Origin: Roseiflexus sp.
Lineage (GTDB): Bacteria; Chloroflexota; Chloroflexia; Chloroflexales; Roseiflexaceae
DNA length: 45,066 bases
Assembly (NCBI GenBank): GCA_025062325.1
Contig: JANXAL010000064.1
Span: 1 to 45,066, forward strand
Direction: 5' to 3'
Each line of letters starts with the position of its first letter. The stretch's first letter is position 1. A model generated the notes under the pieces. That model did no database searches. It was not told the origin of the DNA and worked only from the letters and a program-made list of their open reading frames with translations. Shown one piece after another: positions 32,999 to 40,589 of this stretch. The position numbers were made by a program, and so were the translations under genes.

Positions 32999-33001
32999 CC
33001 C

Positions 33002-33955
33002 CTACTCACTGACGCGCACCAGGATGAGCGGCGTTGTGGTGGCGTGCAGCACCTTATCCGCTACACTGCCGAGCGCCCAACGGCGCAATCCGCTGTACCC
33101 GTGCGTCGCCATCACGATCAGGTCGACCTCCATCTCACGCGCTTCATCCACAATAACCTCCGCGGGATACCCAATCATGACTTGCGTGGTGACCCGCGGA
33201 ACCTCAGCGCGCAGCGACGCTGCTTCCGCTTTCAGATTCTCCAGGGCGTACTCGCGTAGTGCGCCCAAAGCTTCATTGTTTTCAGCGATGGGACGTCCTA
33301 GCATTGGTGCACCGACGTATGCCTCGAGCAGGGGCACGACGGCGCGGAGCAGGATTAGTTCGGCGTGTGCGGCGCGAGCAATCTCGCTCGCCAGCGGCAA
33401 CGCCTGTCGTGCTAGCCCGGAGCCGTCGAGCGGCGTGAGAATACGGCGCGGCGGTCGCACAATTGGTTGCGCCTGCCCGCGCACCACCAACACCGGCACG
33501 GTAGTCGCATGGATGACCTTATCGGCGACGCTGCCGAGCGCCCAGCGGCGCAGCCCGCTATAGCCATGGGTCGCCATGGCAATTAGTGCGCCAGGAGCAT
33601 ATCTGGCGGCAACTTCGACGATCACTTCTGCTGGGGAACCCCAGCGCACTTCATTGGTAACGTCGAGCCCTGCGTCTTCAAGCGCCTGCGCCTGCGCGTG
33701 GAGGTACGCCTGCACACGCTGGCGAAGCGCGTCCATCGACTCTTCGTAGTGGTTGCGCTGCAGCGCCTCACTCTCTGGAACGCCGTAGACTGACATCAGC
33801 ACCTGCGCCCACGACTCACTGCCGCTCACGTGAGTCTCCTGAATGACGCGCAGCAAATGCACCTTTGCGCCTAACAATGGCGCCAGCATCCGAACATAGG
33901 GCAGCACCTGGGCAGACAGTTCGGAGCCATCGAGCGGTACAACAATAGTGTGCAT
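33002..33955 (-). CDS. Universal stress protein with two UspA domains
   Basis: The 317 residues are two full UspA domains. Each starts with a strand and Asp (VVPLDGSELS, LTPLDGSGLA) and ends with the ATP-binding loop (A)THGYSGLRRWALGSV, close to the G-2x-G-9x-G(S/T) motif with Ala in the first position. The two loops are almost identical over 26 residues (33500-33577 and 33035-33112 on the plus strand), while the rest of the domains diverge. UspA proteins respond to starvation, oxygen limitation and growth arrest. GAGGAGG lies before the ATG. It is divergent from the single-domain UspA gene at 34174 and may share control with it. Confidence 0.9.
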   Translation of the reverse strand: MHTIVVPLDGSELSAQVLPYVRMLAPLLGAKVHLLRVIQETHVSGSESWAQVLMSVYGVPESEALQRNHYEESMDALRQRVQAYLHAQAQALEDAGLDVTNEVRWGSPAEVIVEVAARYAPGALIAMATHGYSGLRRWALGSVADKVIHATTVPVLVVRGQAQPIVRPPRRILTPLDGSGLARQALPLASEIARAAHAELILLRAVVPLLEAYVGAPMLGRPIAENNEALGALREYALENLKAEAASLRAEVPRVTTQVMIGYPAEVIVDEAREMEVDLIVMATHGYSGLRRWALGSVADKVLHATTTPLILVRVSE

Positions 33956-34125
33956 GTATTGTCCTCCTCGTTGAGGCTGGTTCTATATGCAGCATACCAT
34001 ACTGCGTGCGCCCCTTTGGAAGAAGATGTTTACCGGGGGTAGCGCGCTCGCAACCCACTGAGACGACGTTGTGATACCTTTACGCACTGTACTGGCATCT
34101 TTCCTGCCCTTTACTGAAGATCACG

Positions 34126-34131
34126 TATAGT
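34126..34131 (+). promoter_or_regulatory. Possible -10 (TATAGT) of the UspA pair
   Basis: TATAGT lies 42 bases before ATG 34174; no convincing -35 was seen. AGGGAGAGGTGA precedes the start codon. Confidence 0.3.
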
Positions 34132-34173
34132 ATGGGATGAACATGTCAGCGTCTGATCGCGCTCAAGGGAGAG

Positions 34174-34599
34174 GTGATCAACATGTTTCGCAAAATACTC
34201 GTCGCTGTTGATGGTTCGCCGACGTCGTCGCGAGCAATCGACGTCGCCGTCGATATTGCAAAGCATTACAATGCAAAATTGTGCCTGCTCCATGCGTTCC
34301 CGCATGTCTCCGATCTTCTTGGCACGCCTGAATACGAGCGTCTGCTGGAAACACGGATGCTGATTGGCCAGTCGCTGATTGAGGCCGCGCGCACTCAGGT
34401 CGGCGATCAGGTAGATGTTGATGTGCAATTGCTTGAGGGGCCGCCAGCGCAGGCTATTCTGCGTGTTGCAGAAGAGGAGCGCTTCGACCTGATCGTAATG
34501 GGGTCGCGGGGGCATGGCGGGCTGGTTGGTCTGCTCCTGGGCAGTGTGAGCAATACCGTCGTACAGCGCGCCCACTGCCCGGTGCTGGTCGTTCACTAG
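34174..34599 (+). CDS. Universal stress protein, single UspA domain
   Basis: The 141 residues form one UspA domain with N-terminal LVAVDGSPTSSRAID and the complete ATP motif MGSRGHGGLVGLLLGSV, followed by CPVLVV. A nucleotide-binding UspA of this size usually works as a dimer. It sits 48 bases ahead of the next UspA gene on the same strand, likely cotranscribed. It is the only one of the three Usp proteins here with the exact glycine at the first motif position. Confidence 0.9.
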   Translation: MINMFRKILVAVDGSPTSSRAIDVAVDIAKHYNAKLCLLHAFPHVSDLLGTPEYERLLETRMLIGQSLIEAARTQVGDQVDVDVQLLEGPPAQAILRVAEEERFDLIVMGSRGHGGLVGLLLGSVSNTVVQRAHCPVLVVH

Positions 34600-34647
34600 G
34601 TGCTGCTACCAGATAGCAATCTGGCGTGGCGCGGTAAGGAGTTGCGC

Positions 34648-35541
34648 ATGTGCCGATCCATCCTGGTGCCGCTTGATGGCTCGGCGTTCAGTGAGCATGC
34701 GTTGCCGCTGGCGCTCGCGGTTGCGCGGCGATCAGGCGCACAGCTGTATCTTGCCCATGTGCTGTCCGGGCGCGGCGGCCTGACCGATGCAGCAGAACGC
34801 GCCACGGCAGCGAGTCGAACCGCCTATCTGGAACGGGTGGCGCAGCAGATCGAGAAGCAATCGGTGCGTGCGCCAATTACATCGATCCTCACCGGACCGG
34901 TCGCTGAGACGCTCCTGGAATACGCCCGATCTGTCAGGTGTGATCTGATTGTGCTCACGACCCATGGTCGGGGTGCGCTCTCACGTCTCTGGCTTGGCAG
35001 CGTTGCCGATACTATTGTACGGCGCTCGCCCGTGCCAGTGATGCTAGTGCGCCCTCATCAACCAACCGTGACCTTCGATGTGAAAGACTCCAGGCGTTTC
35101 CTGCGCCGCATTCTGATTCCGCTTGATGGTTCTCCGCTGGCGGAAGCAATTATCGAGCATAGCGTCCATCTCGGACGCATTATGGACGCAGAGTACACCC
35201 TGCTGCGCGTCGTTGATCCCACAGCGCTGGGTCTGTCGGTGCATAATGAGGATGTCGTCGCCTCCGCAGCGCTGCAATCGCTCAAAGATCGAGCACAGAC
35301 ATATCTGGAACGGCAGGCGGAGGAGTTGCGCGCCCTGGGGTTACAGATCGAGACGGTTGTGGTTGTGGGAGAGCCAGCGGCAAGTATTCTTGAGTATGCA
35401 CGGGCGCATAGCATTGACCTGATCGCAATGGCGACCCACGGACGCGGCGGTTTCTCCCTTCTGCTCCTCGGCAGCGTCGCCGATAAGGTCCTGCGCGGGT
35501 CGTCGCTGCCATTGTTGCTGTACAGCCCTGGGGTCAAGTGA
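34648..35541 (+). CDS. Universal stress protein with two UspA domains
   Basis: From ATG 34648 (AAGGAG upstream) the protein is 297 residues. Domain 1 starts ILVPLDGSAFSEHALPLA and ends LTTHGRGALSRLWLGSVADTIV; domain 2 starts ILIPLDGSPLAEAII and ends MATHGRGGFSLLLLGSVADKVL. The first Gly of the ATP loop is Thr or Ala, as in the other double-domain protein. An earlier in-frame start at 34600 directly abuts the previous stop and is less likely. Together with the CBS and phosphoribosyltransferase genes it forms a stress-type cluster. Confidence 0.9.
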   Translation: MCRSILVPLDGSAFSEHALPLALAVARRSGAQLYLAHVLSGRGGLTDAAERATAASRTAYLERVAQQIEKQSVRAPITSILTGPVAETLLEYARSVRCDLIVLTTHGRGALSRLWLGSVADTIVRRSPVPVMLVRPHQPTVTFDVKDSRRFLRRILIPLDGSPLAEAIIEHSVHLGRIMDAEYTLLRVVDPTALGLSVHNEDVVASAALQSLKDRAQTYLERQAEELRALGLQIETVVVVGEPAASILEYARAHSIDLIAMATHGRGGFSLLLLGSVADKVLRGSSLPLLLYSPGVK

Positions 35542-35699
35542 GCAAATTTGAGGGTGGGAAGGCGGCAGAGGGACAGAGCGTTGTTCCTTAGTTGAGAATA
35601 CGGCGCCATAATAACCGCTCCGGTTGTGCCGACCGGTTGCCCCATCGCCTCGTCTCCGAGAAGGCTCTCAAGGGAAGAGTTGTTCAAGCGCACAGATCC

Positions 35700-36401
35700 T
35701 TACGGCGCAACATGGAGCCGGTAGCGCTCCAGCAAGATAGCGGCGTCCTCATCACTCAGCGGCAAACGCCAGCCATCGGCAGTGTTAGTGGGACCATCGG
35801 CGGAGAGAAGGTTGAGCACAATGACGTCATCCGCCCATGGTCTCGTCATCCGCAAGGTGCGCTCATCAGCGCGCGGCGTTACGAGCAGGCACGCCACTGG
35901 ATGGTAGCGCCGCAGCGCCTGGATTGCCGCCAGTTGCGCCAGACCGCTGCTCAGACCGTCATCGACCAGGATGACCGGTCGTCGAATGTTGAACGGCAGA
36001 GGACGACAATGACGGTAGAGCGCAATCAGTTCTGGAAGGATCGCCTGCTCAGCTCTAACCGCCTCCCAGAGGACGGTTGGGGTCACACCCGGCAACCGTA
36101 GGATGGCGCCGTTCAGACACAACCCGCCTGACTCGCTGATGCCGCCAGCAGCAATCACAGGATAGGCGCGCACGCGAAACTCGCGAGCAACGATGACATC
36201 AACCGGAAGACGAAGGGAACGCGCCAGCTCGCCCGCGACAGCCACGCCTCCCGGCGGAATTGCAAGCACGACGGCGTGCGTCCCGCGGAAACGCCCCAGG
36301 AAGGACGCGAGTCGCCGCCCTGCTGCAGCGCGATCTTCATACCGATCATCGCACCCAATCAGTGGCGCTCCGTATATCGGCTCAATTGGAGAGGCTTTCA
36401 T
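35700..36401 (-). CDS. Phosphoribosyltransferase-domain protein
   Basis: This 233-residue protein has the type I phosphoribosyltransferase fold: AIPPGGVAVAGELARSLRLPVDVIVAREF for the first half and the PRPP loop VILVDDGLSSGLAQLAAIQAL. Homologues often lie with stress genes, and their substrate is not known. It overlaps the CBS gene by ATGA (36401-36398), so the two are translationally coupled; I therefore start at ATG 36401, although MRVMKA at 36410 is possible. The C-terminal part (DGWRLPLSDEDAAILLERYR) may be a partner surface. Confidence 0.8.
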   Translation of the reverse strand: MKASPIEPIYGAPLIGCDDRYEDRAAAGRRLASFLGRFRGTHAVVLAIPPGGVAVAGELARSLRLPVDVIVAREFRVRAYPVIAAGGISESGGLCLNGAILRLPGVTPTVLWEAVRAEQAILPELIALYRHCRPLPFNIRRPVILVDDGLSSGLAQLAAIQALRRYHPVACLLVTPRADERTLRMTRPWADDVIVLNLLSADGPTNTADGWRLPLSDEDAAILLERYRLHVAP

Positions 36402-37093
36402 GACTCGCATGATCCCTGCCGCTCCGCACCCTGTTCCTGCGTCACCAGGTAAACGAAGCAAGGACAATCCCGCCCAGGAATCGCGGTGTGGCGTTCGGGC
36501 CGATCCAGCATACAGCCGATGCCGTCGAAGTAGCGGCAGTTGTCGCAACGGTGGAGATGGTAGTGACAACGCCAGCACTGATCATCGCGGCTGATCGTTT
36601 CAAGCGACCGTCCGCGCAGGACTGTCCCACAGTGATGACATCTCAGAGTTGGTCGGACGGTGTCGCGCGGTTCACTCCCGGTCGCCAGAGCGATCTGGAG
36701 GCGGAAAAGATCGCTCTCAGTGATCATGCCGATAACCCGTCCCTCGTCATCAACAACCGGCAGCCCGCCAATCTTGAACTTCAACATCAACCTGGCAGCA
36801 TCGAGCGTCGATGCGTCGGGAGAAATAGTAATAACGTGGCGCGTCATACACTCCTCGACCGTCACCCGATCCAGCAACGCACGCCACTCATAGTAAGTGA
36901 GCGTTGTATCGGCTGGCTGGGCAGCGCGCAGATCGCCACGCGTGATAATGCCTATCAGTTTGCCGTTCTCTACAACCGGCAACCGACGAATACGTCGTTG
37001 TTCCATCAGACGTTGCGCATCGGCAAGCGTCGTTGTCGGAGCGATGACAATTGCGGGGGTGCTCATCCAGTCAGCAACTCGTTGATCTTTCAT
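36398..37093 (-). CDS. CBS-pair protein with C-terminal cysteine-rich zinc-binding domain
   Basis: From ATG 37093 (CTGGAGG upstream) the protein is 231 residues. Two CBS domains, VADWMSTPAIVIAP to ITRGDLR and VEECMTRHVITISPD to ITESDLF, form a Bateman module that usually senses adenine nucleotides. The tail has nine Cys: C152/C155, C173/C176, C183/C186, C194, C210 and C212, grouped as CHHC, CWRC, CDNC and a CPC end, so one or two zinc (or iron-sulfur) sites are likely. It is coupled to the phosphoribosyltransferase gene (ATGA). The first in-frame start (37150) would add an Arg-rich leader and is rejected. It is divergent from the other CBS gene at 37401. Confidence 0.85.
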   Translation of the reverse strand: MKDQRVADWMSTPAIVIAPTTTLADAQRLMEQRRIRRLPVVENGKLIGIITRGDLRAAQPADTTLTYYEWRALLDRVTVEECMTRHVITISPDASTLDAARLMLKFKIGGLPVVDDEGRVIGMITESDLFRLQIALATGSEPRDTVRPTLRCHHCGTVLRGRSLETISRDDQCWRCHYHLHRCDNCRYFDGIGCMLDRPERHTAIPGRDCPCFVYLVTQEQGAERQGSCES

Positions 37094-37400
37094 AACATGC
37101 CTCCAGCGCGCGGCGGGTCTGTGGCGCCTGAGCGTACTGTAGCATGCCACACTGCGTCAGAAAGAAAAGAAACCATTACATACGGAGAGTATGCGTTTAC
37201 ACGTCATGCGTTGAGTGGAGATCCGGATCCTTCCAGGTGGCGGATCCATCACTGCAGGTAATAACCTGTTACGCCACATACAGGATATGATGGGCTACAA
37301 TTGTTAAGAAATCGAGTCAGATGTTCAGGTTGCCGTGCTGCCAGCGCCGTCCTGTCGGGCGGTCGCAGAGTGTGGCATTATTCCAGAAAGGAGAACTTCG
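37094..37400. promoter_or_regulatory. 307-base divergent control region of two CBS genes
   Basis: The spacer separates two divergently read CBS genes. It contains the perfect palindrome CAGGT AATA ACCTG at 37255-37268 and a possible plus-strand TACAAT at 37296-37301, without a clear -35. No coding frame is convincing. The palindrome is a reasonable operator for a factor controlling both units. Confidence 0.4.
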
Positions 37401-37886
37401 ATGGAGAAGACATCTGCATCTTCCAGGCGACGCTCAGTGCCTGCTGAGGAGGAGATCCGCTTCTGGATGCGCGCTCCGGTGGTCACGGTCAACCTGGCGG
37501 CGCCGGTCAGCGAGGCGCTGGCGCTCATGCGAGAGCATAACGTCCGTCGTTTGCCGGTGGTCATCGATACAGGCGAACTACGCGGCATTATTACGCAAGG
37601 CGACATTCGCGGCGCCGATCTCCTGCGGGTTGCAGGGATGGATCCGTTCGACATCGCCGACGCGCTCCGACGGATCAAGGTGTATGAGGTAATGTCGGAG
37701 GATCCGATCACCGTGACACCGGAGACGAGCCTGCGTGAGGCAGCGCTGCTCATGATCGAAAACAAGATTGGCGGCTTGCCAGTGGTGGACGAGCATAATA
37801 TGGTAATCGGCATTATCACCGAGAGTGACCTGTTCGAGGCGTTGGTGCATATTCTCGAGCGCAGGGAGATGGAGGAAGAGGGGTAG
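37401..37886 (+). CDS. CBS-pair protein
   Basis: The 161 residues hold two CBS domains: IRFWMRAPVVTVNLAAPVSEAL with LRGIITQGDIRGADLL, and VYEVMSEDPITVTPETSLREAA with IGIITESDLFEAL. It is a stand-alone Bateman module likely to bind ATP, AMP or NAD. The second domain is strongly similar to the CBS protein at 36398 (KIGGLPVVDxxxxVIGxITESDLF). ATG 37401 has AAAGGAG upstream. It is followed by the 57-base hairpin shared with the R2lox gene. Confidence 0.88.
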   Translation: MEKTSASSRRRSVPAEEEIRFWMRAPVVTVNLAAPVSEALALMREHNVRRLPVVIDTGELRGIITQGDIRGADLLRVAGMDPFDIADALRRIKVYEVMSEDPITVTPETSLREAALLMIENKIGGLPVVDEHNMVIGIITESDLFEALVHILERREMEEEG

Positions 37887-37897
37887 GGAGCAAGGCG

Positions 37898-37954
37898 CCG
37901 CCATTGCCAGAGAAGAGCCATTGCAATGCAACGGCTCTTTTCTAGCGATGGCGG
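37898..37954. terminator. 57-base two-way hairpin between convergent genes
   Basis: Two 27-base arms around AAT are complementary at 23 positions, with wobble pairs among the differences. The inner part GAGCCATTGC/GCAACGGCTC is followed by TTTT on the plus strand and AAAGAG in the other direction. It lies exactly between the CBS stop (37886) and the R2lox stop (37960). Confidence 0.7.
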
Positions 37955-37959
37955 TTTCT

Positions 37960-38844
37960 TCACAGCGTCTCCGCCATCTCCTCCTCAATTGCCTCTGGGG
38001 CCTGGTTGCGCGCGCGTTCGATGCGGTCTAGGCGACGCTGGAATTGCCCCATCGCAAAATGTACGAAATCGTCGTGGCTTAATCCGAAGGGTACAATCTC
38101 ATAGCATGCGAAGGCGTCGTCGATAACCCCTACTGCATAGACGACGAGTTCATTCATACGCTCAACGACCACATCCCATAGACGCGGTTCGGCGTTGATC
38201 AGTCGTGACAGGAGATACACGCCATAGGCGATATGGCGCGACTCGTCCTGTTTTAGCAACCCGATTCCTTTGCGCGTGCCGGGCATCAGATTGCGCCGCT
38301 CAAGCATGGTGAAGAAGGCGTGATAGCCAGTTTCCGCCAGAACGCCTTCGACGATCATGTTGTAGGTCAACGACGCGATCGCCTGCGCTTCCGGCGAGGG
38401 ATCGTCACGCAGACGCTCCATAGCAGCAGGCAGCGCTTCGTGAATAAGGGCGCGGTAATGAGGCGTGTGGTAGTGGCTTAGGTCGCCTGTCACCCCAGCG
38501 ACTTCGGTCAGAAAGCGGTTGAAGAAGTCGGTATGCTTGGCCTCTTCCCACAAGAAACTGGTCAAGAACAGCTCTTCTTCAACGCGCCCTTCGGCTGCAA
38601 TGGCGGCGATCAGGGGCAGCAGATCGAGGGTGACCGCCTCTTCGCCCGCCTGAAAGAGCGAAGTCAGGCGCAACACCAAATCGCGTTCGTCATCCGTCAG
38701 CGTTCTCCAATCGTGAATGTCCTGGCTGAAATCGATGTCACTCGGGTTCCAGATCCCCAGCCGTTTGGCTTTCTCAAAAAGTCGCATCGGCACGGTATTG
38801 CGGCGCAGGCCGCGACTGGTTGTCACAAATGCTGAGTGGCTCAT
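37960..38844 (-). CDS. R2-like ligand-binding oxidase (R2lox)
   Basis: From ATG 38844 the protein is 294 residues, the size of R2lox (Mycobacterium Rv0233, Geobacillus R2lox). All metal ligands are present: Glu68 and Val71 (GEEAVTLD), Glu101 and His104 (EEAKHTDFF), Tyr161 and Glu166 (YNMIVEGVL), Glu201 and His204 (DESRHIAYG). The Val71/Tyr161 pair forms a Tyr-Val ether cross-link in characterised R2lox enzymes, which use a Mn/Fe site and bind a fatty-acid-like ligand. It is thus not the radical-storing subunit of ribonucleotide reductase. The physiological substrate is unknown. Its ATG overlaps the stop of a LysR regulator (ATGA). Confidence 0.93.
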   Translation of the reverse strand: MSHSAFVTTSRGLRRNTVPMRLFEKAKRLGIWNPSDIDFSQDIHDWRTLTDDERDLVLRLTSLFQAGEEAVTLDLLPLIAAIAAEGRVEEELFLTSFLWEEAKHTDFFNRFLTEVAGVTGDLSHYHTPHYRALIHEALPAAMERLRDDPSPEAQAIASLTYNMIVEGVLAETGYHAFFTMLERRNLMPGTRKGIGLLKQDESRHIAYGVYLLSRLINAEPRLWDVVVERMNELVVYAVGVIDDAFACYEIVPFGLSHDDFVHFAMGQFQRRLDRIERARNQAPEAIEEEMAETL

Positions 38845-39818
38845 GATTGTCTCCTTCTTTCCATTTTCGGCGTCTTTCCCAATGTCTTGCTCTCTAATGG
38901 GGATCGGACGCCAGCCTGGTGCAGGATAGCGCGCACGTCCTCTCCTGTGAGAAATGCAAACACCTCCTGCACAGCGCGTGAGATAGTATGCTCGCGCGAA
39001 CGCAACGCAAACCATTCCTGGTGCAGATTCAGTTCAGCAGGAACGATACTGACATCCTTGTGACTCGCCAGGCACGATTGCGGCACGAATGCCAGCCCGA
39101 TTCCGCTGCGAACCGCCTCAATCGCAACGGTTGCACTGTCGGTTTCAAGCGCAACGTGTATGTCGGCAGGCGCCAATCCGCTGGTGCGTAAGCCCTCGTC
39201 AATGATACGTCGAGCAGTGCTTCCGATGCGTGGCATAATCATCGGCGCATGCCGCAGCGCATCGGTCGTAATGAAGCCGCTCTGCGCCAGTTCATGGTCA
39301 CGCGGCGCAATCAGCACGAGCGGATCGCTGCCCAGCAGTTGCACAACCCAGTTTCGCGGACTCTGCTTGTCTTCAAGGAGGGCAATGTGGATCTGCTGGC
39401 GTGCTAGCTGTTCTAGCAGAATCTCGGGCAAGGCAACGCTAACGGAGAGATGCACTGCTGGATGGCGACTCCGAAAAGCCCGGAGTATTTGAACAAGCAC
39501 GGTCTCACTTCCTGATGGAGTACAACCAAGCGTGACACGACCGCTCACTTGACCTCGCAGACTGCGAATGTGCTCTTCTGCACGCGCTGCCAGTTCCAGC
39601 ATTTCGCGCGCCATCGCTATCAGTTCCTCGCCAGCCTGCGTGGGCAGCATCTGCTGCCCGACCCGTCGAAACAGCCGCACTTGATCGAGCTGGGCTTCGA
39701 GCGCCCGGATGTGGTTGCTAACTGCCGGTTGCGACAAATGGAGACGTTCGGCTGCGGCGCTGTAACTGCCAGTTTCCACTACAGCGAGAAATGTTTGCAG
39801 GTGAATGGTGTTGAGCAT
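38841..39818 (-). CDS. LysR-family transcriptional regulator
   Basis: The 325-residue protein has the N-terminal winged helix-turn-helix (LQTFLAVVETGSYSAAAERLHLSQPAVSNHIRALEAQL), then a LysR substrate-binding domain from SGRVTLGCTPSGSETVL to EHTISRAVQEVFAFL. It probably binds a small molecule and controls the downstream R2lox gene, to which it is translationally coupled. LysR regulators are usually divergent from their targets; here the two are in series. The effector is not known. The truncated antiporter lies 66 bases upstream on the same strand. Confidence 0.92.
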   Translation of the reverse strand: MLNTIHLQTFLAVVETGSYSAAAERLHLSQPAVSNHIRALEAQLDQVRLFRRVGQQMLPTQAGEELIAMAREMLELAARAEEHIRSLRGQVSGRVTLGCTPSGSETVLVQILRAFRSRHPAVHLSVSVALPEILLEQLARQQIHIALLEDKQSPRNWVVQLLGSDPLVLIAPRDHELAQSGFITTDALRHAPMIMPRIGSTARRIIDEGLRTSGLAPADIHVALETDSATVAIEAVRSGIGLAFVPQSCLASHKDVSIVPAELNLHQEWFALRSREHTISRAVQEVFAFLTGEDVRAILHQAGVRSPLESKTLGKTPKMERRRQS

Positions 39819-39884
39819 AACATTCGCCTATGTGATGCACGCGCCTGGTGCGGAAGGTTGAGCCGCTGCGGGCGCCTGGCGTTG

Positions 39885-40589
39885 CTACATAAAAGAACCT
39901 AAAATAGACGACCAAATACACCTGCTGGTTGGAACGCCGATGCCGCGTTCCGGTTTCTGAAACGAGAAGATCAGGCTCAGCATGTAGCGCGCTATCAGGA
40001 CGGCTGCAACTCCTAGGCTGAGCGCGTCGAGCGCTAGGTCGCGCACGTCGGTGTCGAAGACGTTCGCCCTCCCACTCTGCACTTCACGAAGTAACTCGAA
40101 CAGCGTTGGGATCATCATACCAACGATAGAAAGCATCATCATCGTTGCAGCAACGCCAGGCAGATTATGGTCGAACTTCTGGATGCCTCGGCGGATGCCG
40201 CCAAACAGCAGGCTGAGGCCGAGGATAAGGAGCAGATTGTCCAGACCAGCGCCGGTCATCGAGACTTTGACCAGTTCGATCTTGCCTTCGCGCGATGCAA
40301 CGATGGCGATAATCAGTTCGGCGGCGTTCCCCAGCATGGCGTTCAGCAACCCGCCAAATTTGGGTCCAGTGTGAATGACAAACTCTTTGGTCGCTTCACC
40401 GAGGAGACCGGCGGGGGGGACAAGCGCCGCACAGGAGAGCGCAAACACGAGTAGCATGTTGGGGAAGAACGTTTCGGCCAGAAACGCTAGGAAAATCGGC
40501 GTGCAGCGCAGGACGTTCACCGAATGCCCCCTTTCGGTCGGATCGAAGATGAGAACCGGGTGAGTCATCATACCATACGTGCGACTCAT
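39885..40589 (-). pseudogene. Truncated Ca2+/H+ antiporter (CAX family), N-terminal half
   Basis: The frame reads LVFALSCAALVPPAGLLGEATKEFVIHTGPKFGGLLNAMLGNAAELIIAIVASREG and LSLLFGGIRRGIQKF, typical of the first half of a cation/proton exchanger, with the GNAAELI ion motif and at least four membrane helices. A whole CAX protein is about 350-400 residues and has a second mirror-repeat half; here the reading ends after LSLIFSFQ with about 20 unrelated residues. No second half follows before the LysR gene. So it is likely a C-terminal truncation. The best-placed starts are ATGs at 40589, 40571 or 40568. Confidence 0.75.

Follow-up and report, generated by a model that had tools for sequence, protein, structure and literature searches.

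Locus organization

The window, the whole 45,066 bp stretch of DNA that was analysed, is one contig (C39) of a Roseiflexus sp. genome of 4.7 Mb in 143 contigs. Two neighboring genes on its reverse strand encode a 231 aa CBS-CBS-8Cys protein (P0001; 36398..37093), consisting of two PF00571 domains and a Cys-rich tail, and a 233 aa divergent phosphoribosyltransferase (PRTase)-fold protein (P0002; 35700..36401). The TGA stop codon of the P0001 gene and the ATG of the P0002 gene share the sequence ATGA, and P0002 could also start at another ATG in the same frame, three codons further upstream (M-R-V-M). This stop/start overlap had been taken as a sign of coupling in the original prediction; it is present in the window but occurred at only 3/7 paired loci (the window, L028/L055, and L029/L054). 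Gaps of ~17, 20, 21, and 147 bp separated the genes at the remaining four, the longest in G308, another member of the family. Across four pairs of loci, dN/dS was 0.07–0.09 for the CBS protein and 0.15–0.19 for the PRTase, with dS >1 in three of the four, and both genes were under purifying selection in the pairs compared. Because dN/dS was low and the genes were adjacent in 7 Roseiflexaceae loci, the two-gene arrangement goes beyond chance.

Two Usp-type genes (34174-34599 and 34600-35541, spanning 34174..35541 on the forward strand; PF00582 for the second) converge on the PRTase gene, and their order was kept in L028-L033. On the other side of the pair, a second Bateman protein without the tail is divergently transcribed (37401..37886, forward strand). 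Beyond it lies an R2-like ligand-binding oxidase (R2lox; 37960-39015, reverse strand; NF006202, 599 bits); an R2lox-like gene sits in the same place in G308 (L096) and other genes do in G166 (L095). No defence genes were matched by PADLOC at E up to 0.01.

A 5' element upstream of the CBS-tail gene (GTGTAAACGCATACTCTCC...; 37155..37203, reverse strand) was conserved in the alignment of all 7 loci, within an otherwise divergent intergenic stretch, and is a possible promoter or operator. Its 16-base core had no other genome site with <3 mismatches. A search with this core gave no sign of a regulon: it returned 9 further sites in the genome, each at 3 mismatches, vs 16 for the reversed control. 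RNA elements in 33000-40000 were also considered and rejected, as the four Rfam matches were all microRNA models far below the gathering score (E 0.018–0.89).

CBS module

The predicted fusion of a Bateman module to CHHC, CWRC, and CDNC clusters was borne out. The first and second CBS domains of P0001 (PF00571; 36920..37078 and 36698..36859, reverse strand) together scored 130.2 bits in two stretches (Pfam, E 3.3e-38), and all three clusters lie in the tail that follows. Both domains contain a TxxD motif (T51/D54 and T125/D128) that was invariant in 7/7 sequences; T/S-x-x-D is the adenosine-site motif of CBS domains. Among the best 50 of 594 fold matches to P0001, CBS pairs ranked on top, several of them solved with AMP, ADP, ATP, or Ap4A (AcuB, CBSX2). 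The 12-row model used for this search had a mean pLDDT of 58.8, with residues 11-130 at ~67–85, and is good only for the CBS part. The tail was mostly below pLDDT 50 in the same model, and a single-sequence model of the tail (pLDDT 45.4) was useless.

P0001 resembles the nucleotide-binding proteins AcuB, CBSX, and MJ0100 in its Bateman fold and TxxD motifs, but the fold matches span ~130–140 columns, equivalent to the CBS part, and there was no counterpart of the tail among the matches listed. Likewise, the best 25 of 31 NCBIfam matches of P0001 fell on the CBS part or slightly beyond it, and P0001 had no Pfam match to an HPF/RaiA domain at E up to 1. Judging from the invariant motifs, the Bateman module is likely an energy sensor, as originally proposed, and would bind adenylates.

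The 8-Cys tail

The tail of P0001 (residues 152-213; 36455..36640, reverse strand) contains CHHC, CWRC, CDNC, and three more Cys, making nine within residues 152-212, with a tenth Cys at 229. Eight of the nine clustered Cys (C152, C155, C173, C176, C183, C186, C194, and C210) were invariant in 7/7 sequences, window included. Of the nine tail Cys of the original prediction, only eight are conserved. The ninth (C212, in CPCF) is variable: CKQF or CSSF replaced CPCF in 3/7 sequences, and an eighth, more distant sequence had CPAF.

The tail reached no cut-off in Pfam or NCBIfam, where a single sub-cut-off zinc-finger match was obtained from the tail alone (E 0.019), and it had no PDB match below E 1. 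A relationship to XPA was rejected because the matches (E 1.4 and 1.8) were at chance level. Ta0289-type CBS proteins have a C-terminal Zn ribbon (PDB 1pvm and 2qh1; Proudfoot et al. 2008, as cited in PMC2447174) and resemble P0001 in carrying a metal-ribbon-like module C-terminal to the Bateman module. However, 1pvm and 2qh1 matched P0001 in the CBS part only, and the sequence relatives of the P0001 tail are 8-Cys proteins. A Ta0289-type zinc ribbon was rejected, as the tail profile missed both structures at E up to 10, a comparison by sequence only, the tail model being poor.

With a hand-written 8-Cys query we searched 200 Pseudomonadota genomes and found stand-alone 8-Cys proteins in 43/200 (E ≤0.001), including two weak cases. 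Twenty-four loci with such proteins were fetched, 15 of which gave a protein matching the strict Cys pattern, and an HMM was built from these 15. The CBS tails scored 25.5–29.2 bits against this HMM, above every Cys-preserving shuffle (maximum 19.9 bits in 3000 shuffles of three tails with every Cys kept in place). When 4462 ORFs of the collected loci were scanned, only the 24 stand-alone proteins and the 8 CBS-tail proteins (22.6–26.7 bits) were above the inclusion line.

The tail and the Pseudomonadota family share the order CxxC-x-CxxC-x6-CxxC-x-C-x-C..F, and the tail has the eight Cys in order with the CG..L and C..F landmarks of the 8-Cys domain. The two differ in other respects: identity in the alignment was 23–28%, the spacing near the last two Cys is not the same, and the Pseudomonadota proteins are stand-alone (~96–180 aa) whereas the Roseiflexus tail is fused to CBS domains. 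The match was firm at the first six Cys and looser at the last two. Seven Cys plus G, L, and F formed the invariant columns of the joint alignment (A4), in which the remaining Cys was shifted by the alignment. Four stand-alone members reached no cut-off in Pfam or NCBIfam, with a double zinc ribbon as the best match (19.5 of 25 bits). The stand-alone proteins (L114-L137) often had a C-terminal A-x-x-LF motif, and their neighbors varied in the seven loci viewed.

By its sequence, the tail is a divergent member of this unnamed 8-Cys domain family. A TPR protein of the family relative G305 (L146 1009-1689) also ends in a tail-like 8-Cys domain (E 4.4e-4). Since the domain occurs in the CBS protein, in stand-alone Pseudomonadota proteins, and in a TPR protein, it probably represents a mobile module, not one invented locally. 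The predicted metal binding is probable given the eight invariant Cys and the membership in an 8-Cys family, zinc being the probable metal.

Further candidate relatives fell away. Sixteen more Chloroflexota genomes had weak single-sequence tail matches (E 1.8e-4 to 0.0085), and only G224 recurred when the tail profile was searched against 301 phylum genomes. The G224 match in that search (0.0019) had a stop inside, and a new match in G280 (0.0053) had two; no tail-like protein was found at the G224 site. Weak matches to a mixed profile in G088, G235, and G634 had no tail-like reading frame. The tail matches in L060-L062 were LeuRS and PriA (named by eye), other zinc-binding proteins, and L059 contained no tail-like protein. 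On plasmids, three tail matches were at E 3–6, the level of chance, and the hand-written 8-Cys query found none.

The PRTase-fold protein and its clade

The neighbor of the CBS-tail gene was a PRTase-fold gene as predicted, linked to it in 7 loci. P0002 scored 34.6 bits against PF00156 (Pribosyltran), above the cut-off of 26.3, and has the type I PRTase fold by this measure. TT1426 (PDB 1wd5), also of the PF00156 family, was the nearest solved structure by sequence (E 2.8e-15) and places P0002 in the same fold family. In a quick tree of 45 PRTase sequences (44 different), for which the program warned of long branches, the window gene belonged to a clade of 10 separated from the other sequences by a branch of SH-aLRT 100, with long branches meeting at the clade base. 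The clade consists of six Roseiflexus sequences plus G308, G310, G343, and G342.

Three positions separate the clade from the canonical Chloroflexota sequences that were read, which number 35 rows, two being the same protein and one coming from the Roseiflexus sp. host genome. Position 50 (P50 in P0002; 36252..36254, reverse strand) was P in 9/10 and A in 1/10 of the clade vs R in 35/35 canonical sequences. Position 74 (E74; 36180..36182, reverse strand) was E in 10/10 vs K in 35/35. Position 155, the last T of the phosphate loop, was A in 9/10 and H in 1/10 vs T in 35/35. Among 20 Pseudomonadota relatives (from 22 genomes with a match, two of them without a locus, and with a stop codon in four of the 20 matched stretches), K was found in 20/20, T/S in 20/20, and R in 17/20; the three without R keep K and T. 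Because R was kept in only 17/20 of these relatives, it is, on this comparison, the weakest of the three diagnostic positions and not essential everywhere.

P0002 departs from the pattern of PRPP-using enzymes of the TT1426 group: it has P50 and E74 at the R of PRGG and the K of RKL/RKI, and its phosphate-loop region (residues 147-156; 35934..35963, reverse strand) reads DDGLSSGLAQ where the canonical Chloroflexota sequences read have DDGxATGxT. The DD and both G are kept in P0002, with S for the first T and A for the last. Across the clade, D147, G149, and G153 were kept in 10/10, D148 in 9/10, and S152 stood for T in 10/10, so some phosphate binding may survive. The exception at D148 is G342, which has additionally lost this second Asp of the DD pair. 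Aligned with E. coli OPRT, the conserved R and K correspond to pyrophosphate contacts and the T falls in the 5'-phosphate loop. E. coli OPRT itself also has Ala at the last phosphate-loop position. With R, K, and the last loop T replaced in 10/10 clade members, the original proposal that the CBS protein regulates a PRPP-using PRTase is weakened.

Distribution and gene neighborhoods

The tail profile matched 8/158 class genomes, own genome included: six of the genus, G308, and G342, a genome from a different family within the order. Among the named loci, those nearest to the tail came from metagenome-assembled genomes, three of Roseiflexus and two of other Chloroflexota. All 8 tail-bearing class genomes contained the clade PRTase, and the two genes were adjacent in 7/8, which include all 7 Roseiflexaceae loci with a PRTase ≥65% identical (window included). 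In G342 the CBS-tail protein (229 aa) is on a contig other than that of the PRTase, near a gene that is Usp-like by eye. Some PRTase match was present in 85/158 class genomes, with motifs read only where the locus was available, and the count of 10/158 genomes with the clade PRTase was derived from a gap in bit scores (from 179.6 to 145.6) together with motif reading in the fetched loci. The PRTase clade is independent of the tail protein, which is missing from G310 and G343 although both encode the PRTase.

CBS or Usp genes were found within ~1.5 kb at 9/10 clade loci vs 1/35 canonical loci, using a Usp model built from the window's genes and a CBS model built from eight CBS domains of its own genome; with narrower models and the window left out, the counts were 8/9 vs 1/35. 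The exception was G342, where the PRTase gene is cut by the contig end and the readable side has no CBS or Usp gene. These counts overstate the independent evidence, as 7/10 clade loci are from Roseiflexus or G308, which are close relatives. The CBS/Usp setting occurs in about three independent lineages: Roseiflexus together with G308; G310, with Usp alone; and G343, with CBS alone. The G343 genome has no tail match, and its PRTase gene is transcribed divergently from a gene resembling the second CBS gene, the tail gene being absent from between them. This arrangement suggests that the PRTase and CBS genes were neighbors first, and that the tail protein was a later addition or has been lost from G343.

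Interpretation

The observation behind the original prediction is real and its interpretation half right; the PRTase, which had been taken as an ordinary enzyme, is the more interesting part. Domain make-up, conserved Cys, adjacency, co-occurrence, purifying selection, the three residue replacements, and the CBS/Usp setting are all read from sequence, and from them we infer adenylate binding, zinc, physical interaction, a loss or change of PRPP chemistry, and a function in stress. Our preferred reading, which falls a little short of probable, is that the two proteins form a lineage-specific stress pair composed of an adenylate sensor with an 8-Cys tail and a partner of lost or altered PRPP chemistry. 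The CBS protein would be the sensor, and its C-terminal 8-Cys domain, probably with two Cys4 zinc sites, would be a docking or nucleic-acid-binding module. P0002 would keep the TT1426-type PRTase fold with PRPP transfer lost or altered, and would probably be a binding protein or effector. Under low-energy stress, AMP/ATP on the Bateman module would alter the contact of the tail with the partner or with a target that both share. The literature covered (titles and abstract openings, with most subscription papers outside) contained nothing on a CBS-8Cys/PRTase pair.

A more specific and fairly unlikely form of this reading is that P0002 is a PRTase-fold pseudoenzyme co-opted to act as effector for a zinc-bearing CBS protein that senses adenylates, giving a two-part stress switch with the mobile 8-Cys domain as its connector. 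If true, a former PRPP enzyme would read or relay nucleotide status without transferring phosphoribose. To our knowledge, PRTase folds without enzymatic function are few (PurR-type regulators).

The genes may instead be neighbors without direct contact, merely co-expressed within a general-stress cluster of Usp, CBS, and R2lox genes. The Usp and CBS genes around the pair, the separation of the two genes in G342, and the PRTase without tail protein in G310 and G343 fit such a cluster. We consider it rather unlikely, as a rare PRTase clade accompanies the tail in 8/8 tail-bearing genomes (7/8 being close relatives) and translational overlap occurs at 3/7 loci.

P0002 could also be active as a PRPP-dependent phosphoribosyltransferase, possibly on a new acceptor, and be tuned by the CBS protein through AMP/ATP. 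The PF00156 score above cut-off, the TT1426 homology, D147 and D148 kept in the Roseiflexus sp. host genome, adjacency in 7/7 pairs, and purifying selection on the PRTase are all compatible with activity, as is the absence of R from 3/20 Pseudomonadota relatives that keep K and T. Replacement of R50, K74, and T155, each found in 35/35 canonical Chloroflexota sequences read, in 10/10 clade members makes a working enzyme unlikely, as does the loss of the second Asp of the DD pair in G342.

Some structure matches of P0001 concern the ribosome: 9zng, a ribosome complex by title, was among the best 50 of 594 fold matches, and 9e6q, 9znf, 9zng, and 9zni, which beside 9zng are presumably ribosome entries too, matched the CBS part by sequence. 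According to PMC13324472, CBS modules function in archaeal ribosome hibernation, with a role in stress, and the CBS module of HibA binds AMP; HibA has four CBS domains plus HPF/RaiA and Dri has two CBS modules, unlike the single Bateman module of P0001. A role for the CBS-tail protein as a stress factor that binds ribosomes or RNA in the manner of Dri and HibA, with its zinc tail on RNA and the PRTase incidental, is nevertheless very improbable, as only the common CBS fold is shared, P0001 has one Bateman module and no HPF/RaiA match, no PDB entry matched the tail below E 1, and the HibA authors found no clear effect of AMP/ATP on ribosome binding of HibA (PMC13324472).

To return to the stress pair, its PRTase clade has switched cleanly at three positions that are conserved elsewhere, in company with a CBS/Usp setting that nearly all canonical loci lack. 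The CBS fusion offers a handle on the possible role of the 8-Cys domain, which is common in Pseudomonadota and whose scanned members fall below all cut-offs. The host genome also contains a canonical PRTase paralogue (L043 1468-2196; C30:24927-25463), which is a built-in control. The gene after this paralogue is a release-factor-like one of the baeRF family (PF18849; L043 2193-3410), and a gene of like size and start (388–409 aa) follows the canonical PRTase in L042, L045, and L046.
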